A stretch of DNA of 64,000 nucleotides, from the NCBI RefSeq assembly GCF_023195915.1, contig NZ_JALPRP010000002.1, positions 62,001 to 126,000 on the forward strand. The letters run 5' to 3'. The position numbers were made by a program, and so were the translations under genes. The notes beneath the pieces were generated by a model. The model searched no databases. It saw only the letters and a program-made list of their open reading frames with translations, and was not told the origin of the DNA. Below, one piece after another: positions 2,057 through 10,478 of the stretch. Position 1 is the stretch's first letter. Each line of letters opens with the position of its first letter. This DNA is from Methanoculleus sp. 7T. GTDB lineage: Archaea; Halobacteriota; Methanomicrobia; Methanomicrobiales; Methanoculleaceae.

Positions 2057-3235
2057 TCAGATAATATTCAACCCGTTCTCCCGCGCAACCTCGACGAACG
2101 ACTCGCCGACGTGCCGGATCTGCTTCTCAGTCAGCCCGAAGGTGTTGAACTTCCAGACCTTGGTGGAGCCTGGGATGACGCCGGTGATCCCCCGCTTCTT
2201 CATGTCGCTTGAGAGGAAGTACCCGCGTTTCTTGTGATGCTCTGCGACTTTGTCGAAGGAACCGCGGGTATCGACCCGGGTCAGGGTGTGCTGCCTCGGG
2301 TAGTCGGAGAGAACCTTCGTCCCCTCGATGGAGAGAAGGGCGTCCGTGACCGCCTGCGAGTGCGCTACCTCGGTCTCCCAGTGCTGCACCCGCTCCTTGA
2401 CATGGGGGAACGAGGCCATCATGCCGACGACGGTGACGCCCATCAAGGTGCACCCCATCATCTCCACCTCTTTCATCCCGAACGTCCTGCCGGTCACGTC
2501 GCCTTTTGCCTGCGTCATCCGGAAGACACGCTCAGCGTGCTCGTTCGTCGTCGCGAGGACGCCGGAGGGCGCCGGGGCCGCCATGCTCTTGTGGCCCGAC
2601 CCGACAACGAAATCGGCGCCGAGCGCTTTGCCGTCGACAGGCATGATCCCGACCGTGTAAGCCCCGTTGACGAGGACCGGGATGTCGTACTGGTGGGCGG
2701 CTTTTATGATGCCCGCAACGTCGTGGATGTTCCCGAACTGGTAGTCGACGTGGTCGACGAAGAGCAGCGGCGGTGTCCGCGAGAACTCCCGGATCACCGC
2801 CTCGATCTTCTCCGCCGCGGCATCGGCGGTGATGTGGTTCTTTGCGTCCTTCGGGATCTCCCGGGGGACCCCGCCGGCCGCCTCGACCGCCATGAACTCG
2901 GTGTAGTGGGCAAGCGACGTGACGATGACCGGGTCGCCCTTCTCCACATACGTGCTCGCGACAGCCTGGAACCCCCGGCGCGCTCCCGGCACCACCCGCG
3001 CCGTGTCCATGTTCAGCCATGCGGCAAGGTCCTTATGGAACTGCGCAATAGGGGGGTTCTGAATGTAATCGAGTCTTGGAGGGTTTCGGCAGTTGTCGCA
3101 GACCGAGTAGCCGTCGCCGAACGCGATCGCCGCCTTCATGGCGTCGGCGGTGAGCCGCCCGCCCGCTTGGATGGGGTCGATGTTGATGTACATCTCCTCG
3201 ACGTCGCGGGCCTCGATACCGACTCCGCACTTCAC
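2057..3235 (-). CDS. pscS: O-phospho-L-seryl-tRNA:Cys-tRNA synthase (SepCysS)
   Basis: This PLP enzyme converts phosphoseryl-tRNA(Cys) to cysteinyl-tRNA(Cys), the second step of tRNA-dependent cysteine synthesis. The INIDPIQAGGRL opening is typical of the family. The PLP lysine is K216 in SGHKSMAAPAPSG. The redox-active cysteine pair is C46/C49 (VCDNC), and C262 is the probable third catalytic cysteine. Length (392 aa) is normal. The start overlaps the stop of the upstream small ORF by four bases, so the two are translationally coupled. SepRS is not in the window. Confidence 0.95.
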   Translation of the reverse strand: MKCGVGIEARDVEEMYINIDPIQAGGRLTADAMKAAIAFGDGYSVCDNCRNPPRLDYIQNPPIAQFHKDLAAWLNMDTARVVPGARRGFQAVASTYVEKGDPVIVTSLAHYTEFMAVEAAGGVPREIPKDAKNHITADAAAEKIEAVIREFSRTPPLLFVDHVDYQFGNIHDVAGIIKAAHQYDIPVLVNGAYTVGIMPVDGKALGADFVVGSGHKSMAAPAPSGVLATTNEHAERVFRMTQAKGDVTGRTFGMKEVEMMGCTLMGVTVVGMMASFPHVKERVQHWETEVAHSQAVTDALLSIEGTKVLSDYPRQHTLTRVDTRGSFDKVAEHHKKRGYFLSSDMKKRGITGVIPGSTKVWKFNTFGLTEKQIRHVGESFVEVARENGLNII

Positions 3236-3414
3236 CGTACCAACTCCTCTTCGATGATTGCGATCTGCCGCTTCACCTTCTCGATGGAGGCTGCGGCGCG
3301 CTCTCGCTCTGCCTCGTCAAGGTCATGCTCGGGAGCTGTCTTCCGCAGCAGGAACCGGAGGTCGGATAGGATGAAGAGCGCCTGAAAAACTGCATCTACG
3401 GCCCTTTTTGACAC
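3232..3414 (-). CDS. Small helical protein coupled to SepCysS; possible SepCysE-type domain
   Basis: The product is about 60 residues (65 if a TTG at 3429 is used), predicted mostly helical, with a charged C-terminal helix rich in E, R and K. It overlaps the SepCysS start by four bases. The GTG at 3414 is preferred because an AT-rich TATA-like element (3441-3455) lies about 30 bases upstream, giving a leaderless transcript. In methanogens SepRS and SepCysS are bridged by SepCysE, or by a short N-terminal extension of SepCysS. This free-standing ORF is a candidate equivalent. I infer this from position and size, not from recognised sequence motifs. Confidence 0.6.
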   Translation of the reverse strand: MSKRAVDAVFQALFILSDLRFLLRKTAPEHDLDEAERERAAASIEKVKRQIAIIEEELVR

Positions 3415-3465
3415 GAGATCACCATACAAATATCAGTGAGAATATATTAGTTTAAGCGTATTATG

Positions 3466-3544: not shown

Positions 3545-4705
3545 ATGAAGATCGTTCACATAGCAGACACGCATCTGGGATTATCGGCATTTAACCGAGT
3601 CGATCCGGAAACCGGGATGAACCTGCGCGAGCAGATCATCTACGACAACTTCCTCGCCGCCATCGACCGGATCATCGGCATGCATCCTGATGCGCTCATC
3701 CATGCGGGCGACCTCTTCCACCAGGTCAAGCCGAAGACCCGCGCCTACACGACGGCGCTCGACGCCCTCTGCCGCCTGCAGGACGCGGGGATCCCCGTGA
3801 TCGTGATTGCGGGCAATCACAGCATGGCTAAGACCCGGTATACGGCCTCACCGTTTGAAGTCCTCGAACGAGGAGGCTACCGCGCAGGCGACTTCTACGT
3901 CGCCCACAACAACCGCTACCGGCGGGTCGAACTTGACGATACGATCTTTCACCTGATACCGAATATGCTCCAGCCCGAGGGCTACCGGGCGGCGTTCGAA
4001 GCGATTGAGTTCTCGCCCGGCACAAACGTGCTCGTCACCCACGGCCTTGCGAGCATCTTGAAGGACAAACGACTGCACACCGTTGCGGAGCACGAACTGG
4101 ACGCGACCATCATATCCGACCGGTTCGACTACATCGCGCTCGGCCACTACCACAGCCAGGTGCAGGTCGCCGACAACGCCTGGTACAGCGGGTCGCTTGA
4201 ACACTGCAACTACGGGGAGATCGCAGAGACGAAGGGGGGCCTCGCCGTGGACCTGGCAACCGGTGGTGTCGAGAGAATCGACCTCCCGCACACTCCTATG
4301 ATCAGCCTCGGGCGGGTCAACTGCGACGGTCTTACGGCGCGGGAGGCGGTGGACGCCGTTCTCGCGGCGATCGACGGTGCCGGGAAGAAGGTAGACCGGG
4401 CAATCTGCCAGATCACGCTCGACGGGATACGCCGCGAGACACTTCGCGCGCTCGACCAGAAGGCTCTTTCGGATGCTCGAAACCGGATGCTGGACCTTAA
4501 ACTGCGGGCGATAGCCGTCGACGACACGTCCCAGATCTTCCGGGAAGAGTCGCTCGTCGGCGTGGACTATATCGCCGAGTTCGAACGCTTCGTGGAGAGA
4601 GAACACCTTGCCCCCGACGAGGAGGGGTACGTGAAGAGGGCAGGGACCGCGGTCCTCAGAAAGGTGATCGCGCGGCATAAAGAGGGAGAGAGTGCTGCTG
4701 AATAA
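3545..4705 (+). CDS. mre11: Mre11 nuclease, DNA double-strand break repair
   Basis: Mre11 is the Mn-dependent nuclease subunit of the Mre11-Rad50 complex. It opens with MKIVHIADTHLG (metal ligands D8 and H10), followed by HAGDLFH, IAGNHS, VTHG and LGHYHSQ, the phosphoesterase motifs in normal order. Length is about 386 aa. I chose ATG at 3545 because it gives the family's usual opening; a TTG at 3539 has a better-spaced GGAG and cannot be excluded. The 3' end overlaps the rad50 start by 14 bases. It is the first gene of a four-gene rightward operon. Confidence 0.94.
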   Translation: MKIVHIADTHLGLSAFNRVDPETGMNLREQIIYDNFLAAIDRIIGMHPDALIHAGDLFHQVKPKTRAYTTALDALCRLQDAGIPVIVIAGNHSMAKTRYTASPFEVLERGGYRAGDFYVAHNNRYRRVELDDTIFHLIPNMLQPEGYRAAFEAIEFSPGTNVLVTHGLASILKDKRLHTVAEHELDATIISDRFDYIALGHYHSQVQVADNAWYSGSLEHCNYGEIAETKGGLAVDLATGGVERIDLPHTPMISLGRVNCDGLTAREAVDAVLAAIDGAGKKVDRAICQITLDGIRRETLRALDQKALSDARNRMLDLKLRAIAVDDTSQIFREESLVGVDYIAEFERFVEREHLAPDEEGYVKRAGTAVLRKVIARHKEGESAAE

Positions 4706-7700
4706 ACTTGCGATGCGGAATTTCAAGCGGTTCCGGGACCAAGAGATCGTCTTCCAGGACGGTATCACGGGTATCGTCGGGAATAACGGGACCGGCAAGA
4801 GCAGCATCGTGAGCGCTATCCTCTTTGCCCTCTACGGGCTTCAGGGAACCGGGCTTGACGGAGATTACATCGTCAGTTCCTTTGCCGATCCGCAGGACGT
4901 CTGCGAGGTCCGCCTCGACTTTCTGGTCGGCGGCAACGAGTATACCGTCGTCAGGAAGTTCAAGCGCCGTCCTTCCTCCACCCTCCATGAGGCAAACCTC
5001 TACCTGAACCGGAAACTCCTCGCAAACAGCGTCCAGAAGGTGGGATCGGAGGTGCAACGGGTCGTCGGCATGGGGCCGGGCGACTTCCGGAACACCATCT
5101 ACGCCGGGCAGAAGGAACTCCTTACCCTGCTCGAGAGCAGGGCCGGGTCTCGGAAGGACTGGTTCATGCAGGTGCTGGGCATCGATTACCTCAAGAAGGA
5201 CAGCATGGATGAGTTGAAGCAGGTCATCGATGCCAAGGAAGGGATCTCTCGGGAACTGTCGGGGCGGCTCCAAGAACTGGATGCAGACGGGGCCCGCGGC
5301 CGCACATCAGAGCTCCGCGCCGAGCTTGCCGGTGCAGAAGAGGAGTCCGAGAGGGTCGCCGCGACGGAGAAGGACGCCGGAGAGATGCTCGAGCGTGCCA
5401 GGGGAGAACGGGACCGGGTGCTCCTGGTGCGCGACCGATACCTGCACCTCGCAAAGGAAGAGGAGGTGTTGAGGGATGAGATCGAGCGGCTCCGCGCCGA
5501 GTGCCGGGAGGGGGAAGCGGAGATTGCGGCGCGAGAGCGACTGCAGGATGACCTCAAAGACCTCTCTTCCCTCGCCGGCCGTTACGAATCCCTGAAGGCT
5601 GAGGTTGCCGCGATGGCGGAGGAGAAGGTTCTGACCGACCGTCTGGCACTCGAAGCGGAGACCACAAGAGGGCGGATCCGGGAGTACGAGGAGCGCCGCG
5701 AGAAGATCGAGGCGGACCTCGCCGCACTTGCGGCGGACGAGGAGGCGGTCGCCGGGCTTGCCCGGAAGGTCGAAGAATGGCAGGCTCTCCGCGACCGCAT
5801 TACGGCGCTGAAGTCCCTCCAGCCCGAGTATGACGCCCTCCGCGAAGAACTTGCCCGCATGGACGAGCGGTTTGTCCAGACGGAACGGCGCGTCAGAGAG
5901 AACCGGCTGGAGATCGAGGGGGTCGAGGAGAAGGCCCGGCGGCTCCGTGCGCTAGAGGATGAGACCGGCGACTACGACGCCCTCCGGGCCCGTGAAGAGG
6001 TGCTTCTTTCGGCCGCCGAGTATGCCAAGCAGGAAGAGCGGTGCCTGCGGGAGGCTCACGCCGCATCGGACGAGATGAGCCTGATCGAGAACGAGATCGC
6101 CGGGCTTGCCCGGCAGCTCGCCGAGATGGGCGCCGTCGAGGAGCGGATCGAGTCGGCGGAGAGCCGGAAGGAGTATCTGACTTCGCGGATCAGTGCCTGC
6201 TCCGCACGCCGGCAGGCAATCCGCGAAGAGATCCGAAGGCTCGCTGAACATCAGGCAGAGATCCTCAAAGCAGGCCCGGAAGGGTCCTGCCCGATGTGCC
6301 ACCAGGGTCTCGGCGAACACTACGAAGGGTTGGTCGGCGACCTTGCAGCCGCTGCCGCGTCGATGCAGGAGACGCTCGCGGGCCTTGAGCATGAGTATGC
6401 ACGGGCGACCGCCGACCACCAAGGGACGGTCGCCGAGTTGCAGGACCTCCAGCGGCAGCGCATCGCCTTCCAGCAACTGAAAGAGCGGCATGCGCTCTAC
6501 TCGTCCCGCTACGAGCAGAGCGAGGACGCCGTGCGGCGCTGGCAGGCCGAGGCCGGAGAGCACCGCGCCGCGATGAGGGCGCTCGGCGTGGAGGAGTACG
6601 ATCCGGCGGCACACGACGCCATCAAGGAGCGGCTCCGGGACCTTGCGGAGAAACGAACGATGGCCGATACCCTCCGGGGCGAGTGCAGCCGTCTCCCTGC
6701 TCTCCAAGAGGAGCGGCGGCGGCTCATCGCCGAGGTTGAGGGCTACCTCGCCCACAAAGAGAATGTAGTGGCGAGGATCGCTCAGCTAGGGTTCGACCCC
6801 GAGGTCAGGCAGCGCCTGGAAGCCGAAGCGCAGGCGCTTGAGGCGTCCTACCGCGCGTATGCGGAGGCGGAGGCCCGACTCGCGCGGAGACCGGCACTGG
6901 AAGAGGAGCGAAAGGCGGTTCTTGAGAGGCTCGAAGGGCTCCAAGCGAAGTTACGGAGCATCGGCGACGAGGAGACCCGCCTCTCGTTCGACCCCGAGCG
7001 GTTCGCACGCCTCGGCGAGGAGTGCGGCCGTGCCGAAGAAGCGCACCAAAAGACGCTCGAACTCCGTATCCGCCTCGAGGAGGTTCCGAGGCTCTCCCAA
7101 GCACTGGAGGCGAAGCGGAACCTCCTTGCAAACCGTGAGACCGAATTAATCTGTGTTGGAACAGCCGTCGGCGACCTTGGTTTCGATGAGAGGATGGTCG
7201 CCGCGGCGGAGGAGGCGCTTGCGGGCTGTGAGCGGGATCTTGCCGCGGTGCGGGAGAGGAGATATGCAGTTGCCGCCAGGATAGCCGGCCTGAAGGCGAG
7301 TATCGAGGAGGAGACCGCGAGACTCTCCCGAGCCGAGGACCTCGCCCGGCAGCAGAAGGCGCTCCTCGAGGAGACCGGGCACCTGAAACTGACCCGTTCG
7401 CTCATCAGGGACTACACGGACTACCTCCTGCAGGTGGTCAGAGACCGGATCGAGGAGGAGGCCGGGAGGGTGCTTGCCGAGATCACCGACGGGCGGTACA
7501 GCACGGTGATGCTCGACGACGACTTTACCGTCCTCGTCCATGATATGGGAGACGATTACCCGGCCGACCGGTTCAGCGGCGGCGAGCAGGACGACATCGC
7601 CATCGCCCTCAGGATCGCCCTCTCGCGGTTCCTTGCCGAGGTGAACGAGGTGCACGACTCCACGTTCCTGATCTTCGACGAGATCTTCGGGAGTCAGGAT

Positions 7701-7865
7701 GAGGGGCGGCGCAACAACCTTCTGCGTGCGCTCCGGACTCAGGAGGCTCATTTCCCCCAGATCCTTCTGATATCTCATATCACCGAGGTCCAAGACGAGT
7801 TCTCGACGACGTTCATGGTCGAGATGGGGGCGGACCAAGCAAGCCGCGTCCGGGAGTTCGACTGA
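4692..7865 (+). CDS. rad50: Rad50 ATPase, DNA double-strand break repair
   Basis: This is an SMC-like ATPase of 1057 aa. The Walker A motif GNNGTGKS is at 30-37. Two long coiled-coil stretches flank the zinc hook CPMC (C533, C536). The ABC signature FSGGEQ is near 960 and the Walker B FLIFDEIFG near 990. The start is a GTG preceded by GAGGGAG, inside the end of mre11. The stop overlaps the nurA start by one base. It tethers and processes DNA ends together with Mre11; NurA and HerA then act in resection. Confidence 0.95.
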   Translation: MLLNKLAMRNFKRFRDQEIVFQDGITGIVGNNGTGKSSIVSAILFALYGLQGTGLDGDYIVSSFADPQDVCEVRLDFLVGGNEYTVVRKFKRRPSSTLHEANLYLNRKLLANSVQKVGSEVQRVVGMGPGDFRNTIYAGQKELLTLLESRAGSRKDWFMQVLGIDYLKKDSMDELKQVIDAKEGISRELSGRLQELDADGARGRTSELRAELAGAEEESERVAATEKDAGEMLERARGERDRVLLVRDRYLHLAKEEEVLRDEIERLRAECREGEAEIAARERLQDDLKDLSSLAGRYESLKAEVAAMAEEKVLTDRLALEAETTRGRIREYEERREKIEADLAALAADEEAVAGLARKVEEWQALRDRITALKSLQPEYDALREELARMDERFVQTERRVRENRLEIEGVEEKARRLRALEDETGDYDALRAREEVLLSAAEYAKQEERCLREAHAASDEMSLIENEIAGLARQLAEMGAVEERIESAESRKEYLTSRISACSARRQAIREEIRRLAEHQAEILKAGPEGSCPMCHQGLGEHYEGLVGDLAAAAASMQETLAGLEHEYARATADHQGTVAELQDLQRQRIAFQQLKERHALYSSRYEQSEDAVRRWQAEAGEHRAAMRALGVEEYDPAAHDAIKERLRDLAEKRTMADTLRGECSRLPALQEERRRLIAEVEGYLAHKENVVARIAQLGFDPEVRQRLEAEAQALEASYRAYAEAEARLARRPALEEERKAVLERLEGLQAKLRSIGDEETRLSFDPERFARLGEECGRAEEAHQKTLELRIRLEEVPRLSQALEAKRNLLANRETELICVGTAVGDLGFDERMVAAAEEALAGCERDLAAVRERRYAVAARIAGLKASIEEETARLSRAEDLARQQKALLEETGHLKLTRSLIRDYTDYLLQVVRDRIEEEAGRVLAEITDGRYSTVMLDDDFTVLVHDMGDDYPADRFSGGEQDDIAIALRIALSRFLAEVNEVHDSTFLIFDEIFGSQDEGRRNNLLRALRTQEAHFPQILLISHITEVQDEFSTTFMVEMGADQASRVREFD

Positions 7866-8902
7866 TGGACCAGAAGTCTCTCTACCGTTACGCGATTCAG
7901 CGGGTCGCAGGAAGGATCCGCGAGTCCGCCCCGGCGGACCTTGCCGAGTTGTTCTCGGCCTGCAGCGGGTTTGGCGAGTCGTCCTACCGGCACTGCCGGC
8001 CCGAGTTCGACGGGGCAGTCTGCGCTGTGGACGGGAGCGACACCATTGTCCTCGATGCAGGCAGTTTTGCCGTCGCCGCCGTCCGGGCATCGGTCAGCGC
8101 GTACGCCGGCGGCGCACGGGTGCATCACAGGACGACACCCTTGCAGATCGTCACCGTCAATCCCGGAGCCGGAAACGAAGACTTTGACGCGCTCTTTTGC
8201 GACTGCTTCCACTGCCCTCCGAAGGTGCACCTCGACCACGACGACCCGGTCAGGAACGCCGCCGTCATACGAGATACCCTTGAGTACTGGGCGGCGATGG
8301 AGATGGCCGCGGAACTCGAGACCGGGGACCTCATCGTCCTCGACGGCACGCTCCAAGTCCGCCACGCGAGCCACGACGAGGTCATCGAGAGCCTCCTGAA
8401 CCTCTGCAACCTCCGGGGCGTGCTCATCGCCGCGGTGACGAAACGGACGTCGCTCACCTGGGGCGGGGGGCACCCCATCGTCCCGGCGGCGGAGGAGCTT
8501 GCCCGTGACCTCGGTGTCCCGGAGCCCTGGTACCTCCGCGTCTCCGCCGCGGAAGGCCTGATCGACCGTCTGACAGCGCGCCCCTGGAAGCAACGGGGCG
8601 AACAGTACGTCGCGCGGCTGCACCCGCGGGCGCAACGGGCGTTCAAAGTGGAGATCCCAAAATATTACAGCCCGGAGATGGTCGAGCGGGTCTTCTCCGC
8701 GCTCGCCTTCTTTGCCGACGACGGGCGGGTCACAGGCTACCCCTATCCGCTCCTCGACGCCCACCTGACCACCAAGATCGGGAGGGATGCGGTCGAGCAG
8801 GTCCGCCAGGACATCATCCGGGGCATGGACCGGCTCGGGATGAATCTCGCCGACTACATCGGCATCTTCGGTGACTACCATGATGAGTTTGATCGATATT
8901 GA
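7865..8902 (+). CDS. nurA: NurA 5'-3' nuclease
   Basis: NurA works as a dimer at the mouth of the HerA translocase ring to resect DNA ends. The 345-aa product has the NurA core with an acidic motif AVDGSD near residue 57, and later IVLDGTLQ, both fitting the RNase H-like metal site. It starts on the last base of the rad50 stop and overlaps herA by 23 bases, so tight coupling is expected. Confidence 0.88.
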   Translation: MDQKSLYRYAIQRVAGRIRESAPADLAELFSACSGFGESSYRHCRPEFDGAVCAVDGSDTIVLDAGSFAVAAVRASVSAYAGGARVHHRTTPLQIVTVNPGAGNEDFDALFCDCFHCPPKVHLDHDDPVRNAAVIRDTLEYWAAMEMAAELETGDLIVLDGTLQVRHASHDEVIESLLNLCNLRGVLIAAVTKRTSLTWGGGHPIVPAAEELARDLGVPEPWYLRVSAAEGLIDRLTARPWKQRGEQYVARLHPRAQRAFKVEIPKYYSPEMVERVFSALAFFADDGRVTGYPYPLLDAHLTTKIGRDAVEQVRQDIIRGMDRLGMNLADYIGIFGDYHDEFDRY

Positions 8903-10478
8903 CGGAGGCGACGCCTCGAAGTACCGCCTGATCGGGGACCGGGTCCTCAGTTACCGGTTCGCCGTCCCCCACGACGCAGAACTCTACCTCGGGGACGTGC
9001 TCAAGATCACCGACAGCACCAAGGGGCTGACGTTCTTTGCGAAGGTGAGCGACCTTCTCCACGGCTGCAACTTCTCAGACCCGAAGTGGGACACCCGTCC
9101 CCATACCGAGCACTTCTACGGGATCGGGGAAGACGTCTTCATCCTTGTGGAAGCGCTCCCGCTCGGCTACGTGGGCGAAGACGGGGTCTTCCGGAAACCC
9201 AAGACGATCCCGACAAAGTTCTCCCGCGTTGAGCAGCCGGAGGCCGGCGACTTTGCGTTCCTGCGGCAGGTTATGGGCGAGATCGAGGTGGGCGTGATGA
9301 AGACCGGCCAGGGCGTGCTCAAAGACGTGAAGGTGGCGCTCCACGCGGCGGTGATGCGGCAGCATATGGGCGTCTTTGCCACGACCGGCATGGGGAAGAG
9401 CAACTTCATGAAGGTCTTCTGCGCCTCCTGCATGCAGGCCCGGAAGTTCGGGCTCCTCATCGTTGACCCGCACGGCGAGTACGTGGCGGGGGGGCGGTCG
9501 TCGAGTGGCAAGGCCACCCAGGGGCTCCTGCACTACCAGGCCGGGCGGGACGGCCTCTCGGTCTTTACCACCCGGTCGGATGGTTTCAGGAAGAAATACC
9601 TGCTCGACCAACTCTACCTGGACTACGACGACTTCAGGGCGCCCGACCTCCTCCTGCTCTACGAGCACTCCCAGCCCCAGCGCGAGGTCGTGGAGATGCT
9701 CGAGAGCACGCCCGGTTCCGCCGTGATCGACTTCTTCCGGACCACCGACTTTGCAACGTTCGATGCCGATACCTACACCGGCCATCACCCGGGAATTGCC
9801 AGAGACCTGAAGAACTTCTCGCCGAGCACGCTCTCCGTGATGCAACGGCGCATCATGGGCATGCTCAACCGGAACAAGGGCTTCCTCCGGGAGAAGGGCT
9901 CGTCGATTCCCGACATCATCAAGGCGCTCCACGAGAATAAGGTCGTCCTGATCGATATCCCGGGGATGAGCGAACAGAGCGAACTCTTCGTCCTCTCGAT
10001 CATAACTCGCAAGATCATGCGCAACCACCAAGGCGAGGATGCCAGGGACGAGGAGGAGCAGAAACAGGTGCTGATCACCATCGAGGAGGCACAGCGGGTG
10101 CTGGGGTCCGGGCTCGGGAGCACCCGGACGTTCCGGGAAGCCGCGATGGAAGGGAGGAAGTTCGGCGTGGGGCTCTGTGTCGTCACCCAGCAGCCGAAGA
10201 ACATCGATGCGCGGGTGCTTGCCCAATTGAATACCTTCGTCGTGATGGGGCTCTCGGACCGCGGCGACCGCGATATCATAGCAAGCAGTGCAAAACAAGA
10301 CCTCTCGCGCTTGGATACCGAGATTCAGACGCTTGAGCCCGGTGAAGCGGTCATCAGCACCATCGGAATCCCGTTTCCCGTGAGCACCCGGATTCATCTC
10401 TTTGAGGAGTATATCCAGGACCTCAACGGGAGGCCGGTGCCGAGGTCGATAGAAGAGGGACTTGAAACAACGTTCTAA
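8880..10478 (+). CDS. herA: HerA hexameric DNA translocase
   Basis: HerA is an FtsK/HerA-family ATPase that drives NurA-dependent resection. An N-terminal beta-barrel (HAS-barrel) region is followed by Walker A TTGMGKSN near residue 167, Walker B LITIEEAQ near 397, and a C-terminal arginine-containing region around LSDRGDRD. I chose ATG 8880 because GGTGA lies five bases upstream; GTG 8871 is possible. The gene is last in the mre11-rad50-nurA-herA operon. Confidence 0.92.
   Translation: MMSLIDIDGGDASKYRLIGDRVLSYRFAVPHDAELYLGDVLKITDSTKGLTFFAKVSDLLHGCNFSDPKWDTRPHTEHFYGIGEDVFILVEALPLGYVGEDGVFRKPKTIPTKFSRVEQPEAGDFAFLRQVMGEIEVGVMKTGQGVLKDVKVALHAAVMRQHMGVFATTGMGKSNFMKVFCASCMQARKFGLLIVDPHGEYVAGGRSSSGKATQGLLHYQAGRDGLSVFTTRSDGFRKKYLLDQLYLDYDDFRAPDLLLLYEHSQPQREVVEMLESTPGSAVIDFFRTTDFATFDADTYTGHHPGIARDLKNFSPSTLSVMQRRIMGMLNRNKGFLREKGSSIPDIIKALHENKVVLIDIPGMSEQSELFVLSIITRKIMRNHQGEDARDEEEQKQVLITIEEAQRVLGSGLGSTRTFREAAMEGRKFGVGLCVVTQQPKNIDARVLAQLNTFVVMGLSDRGDRDIIASSAKQDLSRLDTEIQTLEPGEAVISTIGIPFPVSTRIHLFEEYIQDLNGRPVPRSIEEGLETTF

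Follow-up and report, generated by a model that had tools for sequence, protein, structure and literature searches.

The DNA analysed here, a window of 64,000 nucleotides from Methanoculleus sp. 7T, carries directly before its SepCysS gene a small gene, sepCysSn, whose product is, judged by sequence profile and predicted fold, homologous to the N-terminal, SepCysS-binding domain of SepCysE. We think it likely that free-standing SepCysSn represents the SepCysS-docking domain of SepCysE, kept as a separate gene for 60 amino acids that is translated together with SepCysS, and that its helical hairpin docks on the enzyme in a 2:2 complex with a structural role.

Genes of this kind are named in the main text of Mukai et al. 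2017, as SepCysSn where a split gene precedes SepCysS and as SepCysSN where the two are fused (PMC5424206), and the description is repeated in that of a 2022 follow-up by Mukai et al. (PMC8762117). As presented there, they share with the window gene a product homologous to the N-terminal helical domain of SepCysE, a position directly before SepCysS or as its N-terminal fusion, and a genome without full-length SepCysE, so that the window gene is no different in kind. Neither main text names Methanoculleus or Methanomicrobiales for SepCysSn, and a literature search for SepCysS together with Methanoculleus returned no paper. The split arrangement is nonetheless already known, and the window gene is mostly a known find.

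A similar arrangement exists for another enzyme. PylSn, the free-standing N-terminal domain of PylRS, binds tRNA. It is likewise a small adapter that is either encoded separately from its enzyme or joined to it, a parallel drawn by Mukai et al., although the enzyme differs, being PylRS for PylSn and SepCysS for SepCysSn.

A short gene overlapping the start of SepCysS

SepCysS occupies positions 2057-3235 of the minus strand and is identified by PRK09331 (E 4e-178) and by the NCBIfam model TIGR02539 (385 bits, cut-off 365). Upstream of it on the same strand the frame at 3232-3429 is open, and its TGA stop (3234-3232) falls within the GTG start codon of SepCysS, the two genes overlapping by four bases in GTGA (3235-3232). 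An earlier, sequence-only reading of the window had described both the overlap and the identity of SepCysS correctly. The overlap suggests that the two genes may be translationally coupled and their products made in equal amounts.

The extent of the gene given in that reading needs amendment at one end. The first start codon of the frame, TTG 3429, would yield 65 residues, and we reject it as lying five codons outside position 3414, where a GTG or ATG is conserved in 23 sequences of the genus behind a ribosome site. Because this conserved start stands just behind GGTGATC, the product is taken to have 60 residues and not 65, and on locus reading and homology sepCysSn is best placed at 3232-3414 of the minus strand, its translation from GTG 3414 being MSKRAVDAVFQALFILSDLRFLLRKTAPEHDLDEAERERAAASIEKVKRQIAIIEEELVR. 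The Shine-Dalgarno-like GGTGATC (3417-3423, minus strand), which we take to match the tail of 16S rRNA, is kept in nearly all of the 23 genus sequences, and GGTGAT in all 23. Further upstream lies the TATA-box-like element CTAATATAT (3442-3450, minus strand), 28-36 bases before the start codon; as CTAATATA(T) it is found at this distance in the 23 genus sequences, in keeping with the proposal that the ORF has a TATA box of its own.

The sepCysSn leader also contains an out-of-frame ATG (about 3424-3395, minus strand; ATGGTGATCTCGTGTCAAAAAGGGCCGTAG), which opens the short frame MVISCQKGP with one Cys codon; this frame is probably incidental to the ribosome site and the sepCysSn start. An ORF overlapping the region in antisense, at 2234-3385 of the plus strand, was not counted among the genes, since in most homologues the sepCysSn stretch has its minus-strand frames closed.

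A search with the sepCysSn protein gave a match in all 41 relatives, drawn from six families of Methanomicrobiales. In 40 the E-value is no higher than 6e-12; the match in the 41st, an 80%-complete genome, is at chance level only. Among loci L001-L040, SepCysS follows immediately downstream in each of the 39 that hold sepCysSn, and the neighbourhood is thus conserved within the order; a lack of such conservation would have counted against the sequence-only reading. The sepCysSn frame is open in 39/39 homologues, the other five frames in 0-8 of the 39, and 252 pairs within the genus give a median dN/dS of 0.19. Residues M1, D7, F10, L16, R20, R24, A27, P28 and H30 are invariant in 19 diverse members. 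It could be argued from the shortness of the ORF, its non-ATG start in the window and the absence of any match in Pfam and NCBIfam that it is spurious, or that, as a regulatory upstream ORF, it yields no stable protein; with a dN/dS of about 0.19, a frame open throughout and a protein conserved across six families, we give this idea practically no credence, and on such comparative evidence the ORF is a real gene.

Relationship to SepCysE

When the window protein was searched singly against the PDB, MJ1481, the SepCysE of M. jannaschii, ranked first at a non-significant E of 0.64. A profile built from 19 SepCysSn members likewise has MJ1481 as its top match, at a sequence E of 6e-4 over residues 54-95, with the first unrelated match only at E 1.2; the best domain alone gives a modest E of 0.022. 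The APxHxL turn is common to the profile and to MJ1481, where it reads APKHELNEEE. The profile comparison with SepCysE proposed by the sequence-only reading has therefore come out positive, and the helical character that it ascribed to the protein agrees with the predicted structure, a two-helix hairpin (helices 3-25 and 34-58) with a pLDDT of 96.4. Compared by Foldseek with 350,542 PDB chains, this hairpin has as its best five matches SepCysE N-terminal domains in every case (3WKR, 3WKS, 5X6B; probability 1.00), with 0.9 Å over 46-49 columns for two chains. The Foldseek E-values of these matches are weak, at about 0.2, as expected at 60 residues, so that the conclusion rests on the rank order and the sequence evidence combined.

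SepCysE is thought to act by tying together SepRS, SepCysS and tRNA. In M. jannaschii, its N-helix (residues 1-24) binds SepRS, the domain at 35-101, as a dimer, binds the SepCysS dimer, and the domain at 111-213 binds tRNA, its deletion leaving the SepCysE-SepCysS complex with no detectable tRNA binding (PMC5688128). SepCysSn shares with SepCysE (MJ1481; Pfam DUF2100, PF09873; structures 3WKR, 3WKS, 5X6B and 5X6C) the N-terminal helical hairpin including its APxH turn and is predicted to have the same partner, SepCysS. By extrapolation from the matched residues 54-95 it spans about residues 44-103 of MJ1481, that is, the SepCysS-binding domain only. Both of the other parts are missing: the alignment begins at about residue 44, past the SepRS-binding N-helix (about 1-24), and SepCysSn ends at about residue 103, short of the Toprim-like, tRNA-binding C-terminal domain (111-213). 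Of the earlier suggestion that the ORF is a SepCysE equivalent, the homology to the SepCysS-binding part stands; at the level of sequence SepCysSn is a partial equivalent, the docking domain, and not the whole of SepCysE. Recruitment of SepRS and tRNA, which the same reading had envisaged, loses its footing here, with only the SepCysS-binding domain aligning.

Split and fused forms

In another genome of the genus, a 465-residue SepCysS frame (L041) has an N-terminal extension to which the window protein aligns at E 2.4e-4, and the profile matches fused SepCysSN proteins at up to E 1e-14, which supports the relation to SepCysS extensions raised by the sequence-only reading. Two of the fused proteins (L095 and L096) contain ETAPDHRLDE, the APxH turn motif of the free-standing proteins. 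When 197 genomes of the phylum were searched with the profile, 84 of the 95 matches had a listed SepCysS directly downstream, and three of the remaining 11 were confirmed by locus reading. Viewed from the enzyme, 84/87 listed SepCysS of the clade have a SepCysSn match, and one of the three without (L110) has, on reading, an extension that follows this pattern in diverged form; canonical SepCysS, scoring 490 bits and more, had no SepCysSn-like neighbour in the phylum sample. The loci scanned include 75 split pairs of sepCysSn and SepCysS, and one genome of the same genus (G021) holds two fused genes together with one split pair.

These fusions bear on whether the small gene might merely be co-transcribed with SepCysS and act elsewhere. 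It does have a separate reading frame, and its contact with SepCysS is a prediction, but many relatives carry this domain fused to the enzyme, and both its fold and its sequence match a known SepCysS-binding domain, which makes an unrelated function very improbable.

In a 75-row tree of SepCysS, rooted on the canonical enzymes, fused proteins come off first and split genes are nested twice inside the fused ones, with the split group of Methanomicrobiales supported at 100/100. In a tree from a smaller sample the split genes all fall together (87/93), and in that sample a single clade of fused proteins is weakly rejected (p-AU 0.04). The rooting favours an origin of the split genes by fission from a fused ancestor, as far as can be judged from these sequences.

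Some loci depart from the simple split or fused pattern. At L060 (G002:C1:1542000-1545500) a minus-strand ORF (1046-1396) comprises the SepCysSn domain and the first SepCysS residues and then breaks off, next to ORFs resembling cysteine synthase and serine acetyltransferase; it looks like the remnant of a fused SepCysSN, a second SepCysS having been lost where free cysteine synthesis is encoded. At L102 (G174:C130; 920-1165, plus strand) a free-standing near-copy of a SepCysSn domain lies about 540 bases upstream of a fused SepCysSN, with a nucleotidyltransferase-like ORF in between, and is uncoupled to any SepCysS start. A tRNA-Cys gene is present in 10 of the 11 fused loci scanned (L041-L052, L060), and the window contains no tRNA gene at all.

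Genomic setting

The Methanoculleus sp. 7T genome, which is 99.88% complete, encodes SepRS (709 bits) and no CysRS above the cut-off (best 35 bits); the SepRS/SepCysS pathway is therefore probably its sole source of Cys-tRNA. No match to SepCysE (PF09873) was found in this genome, and a search of 61 Methanomicrobiales genomes, for which M. jannaschii served as the positive control, was equally negative.

Divergent from sepCysSn, on the plus strand at 3545-10478, genes for Mre11, Rad50, a NurA-domain protein and a HerA-like protein stand in a row, an ordinary archaeal repair set that has the short intergenic region in common with the sepCysSn promoter. On the plus strand, past the end of SepCysS, lies ThiI, a tRNA uracil 4-sulfurtransferase (555-1733; TIGR00342, 299 bits), which places two tRNA sulfur enzymes close together.

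A probable structural role for SepCysSn

What might a docking domain do by itself? SepCysSn most likely folds as a two-helix hairpin and would pair with a second copy, and this dimer may dock onto that of SepCysS so that their two-fold axes coincide, in the manner of the SepCysE N-terminal domain (3WKR/5X6B). The two proteins would then form an obligate 2:2 complex. Homology gives good grounds for docking on SepCysS. The main role is taken to be a structural one, in which SepCysSn would stabilise the SepCysS dimer and hold the SepCysS N-terminal strand in position, and not one of bridging to SepRS or tRNA, because the SepRS-binding helix and the tRNA-binding domain are absent.

Against this it can be said that many functional contacts of SepCysE involve partners beyond the reach of SepCysSn by the known arms, which makes its strict conservation hard to account for. 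The near-invariant polar residues D7, D18, R20 and R24 are moreover not shared with MJ1481 and so leave room for another partner. SepCysSn alone could on this basis form a minimal transsulfursome, bridging SepCysS to SepRS or Sep-tRNA-Cys by means of a lineage-specific surface taking the place of the absent arms, and in a genome with SepRS and no CysRS above the cut-off such channelling could be useful. If true, this would mean a transsulfursome that works without the N-helix and the tRNA-binding domain thought necessary. SepCysSn nevertheless has neither of these parts, and M. jannaschii SepCysE no longer bound SepRS once its N-helix had been deleted, while tRNA binding became undetectable when the C-terminal domain was removed (PMC5688128); the four polar residues may simply suit this clade of SepCysS. 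We accordingly regard a bridging function as unlikely and retain the structural, docking role.

On the docking reading, the sole surviving piece of SepCysE would be the one that docks on SepCysS, and it has been under selection throughout an order. A genome with SepRS, without CysRS and without SepCysE offers a clean setting, in which the docking domain's own function is directly testable.
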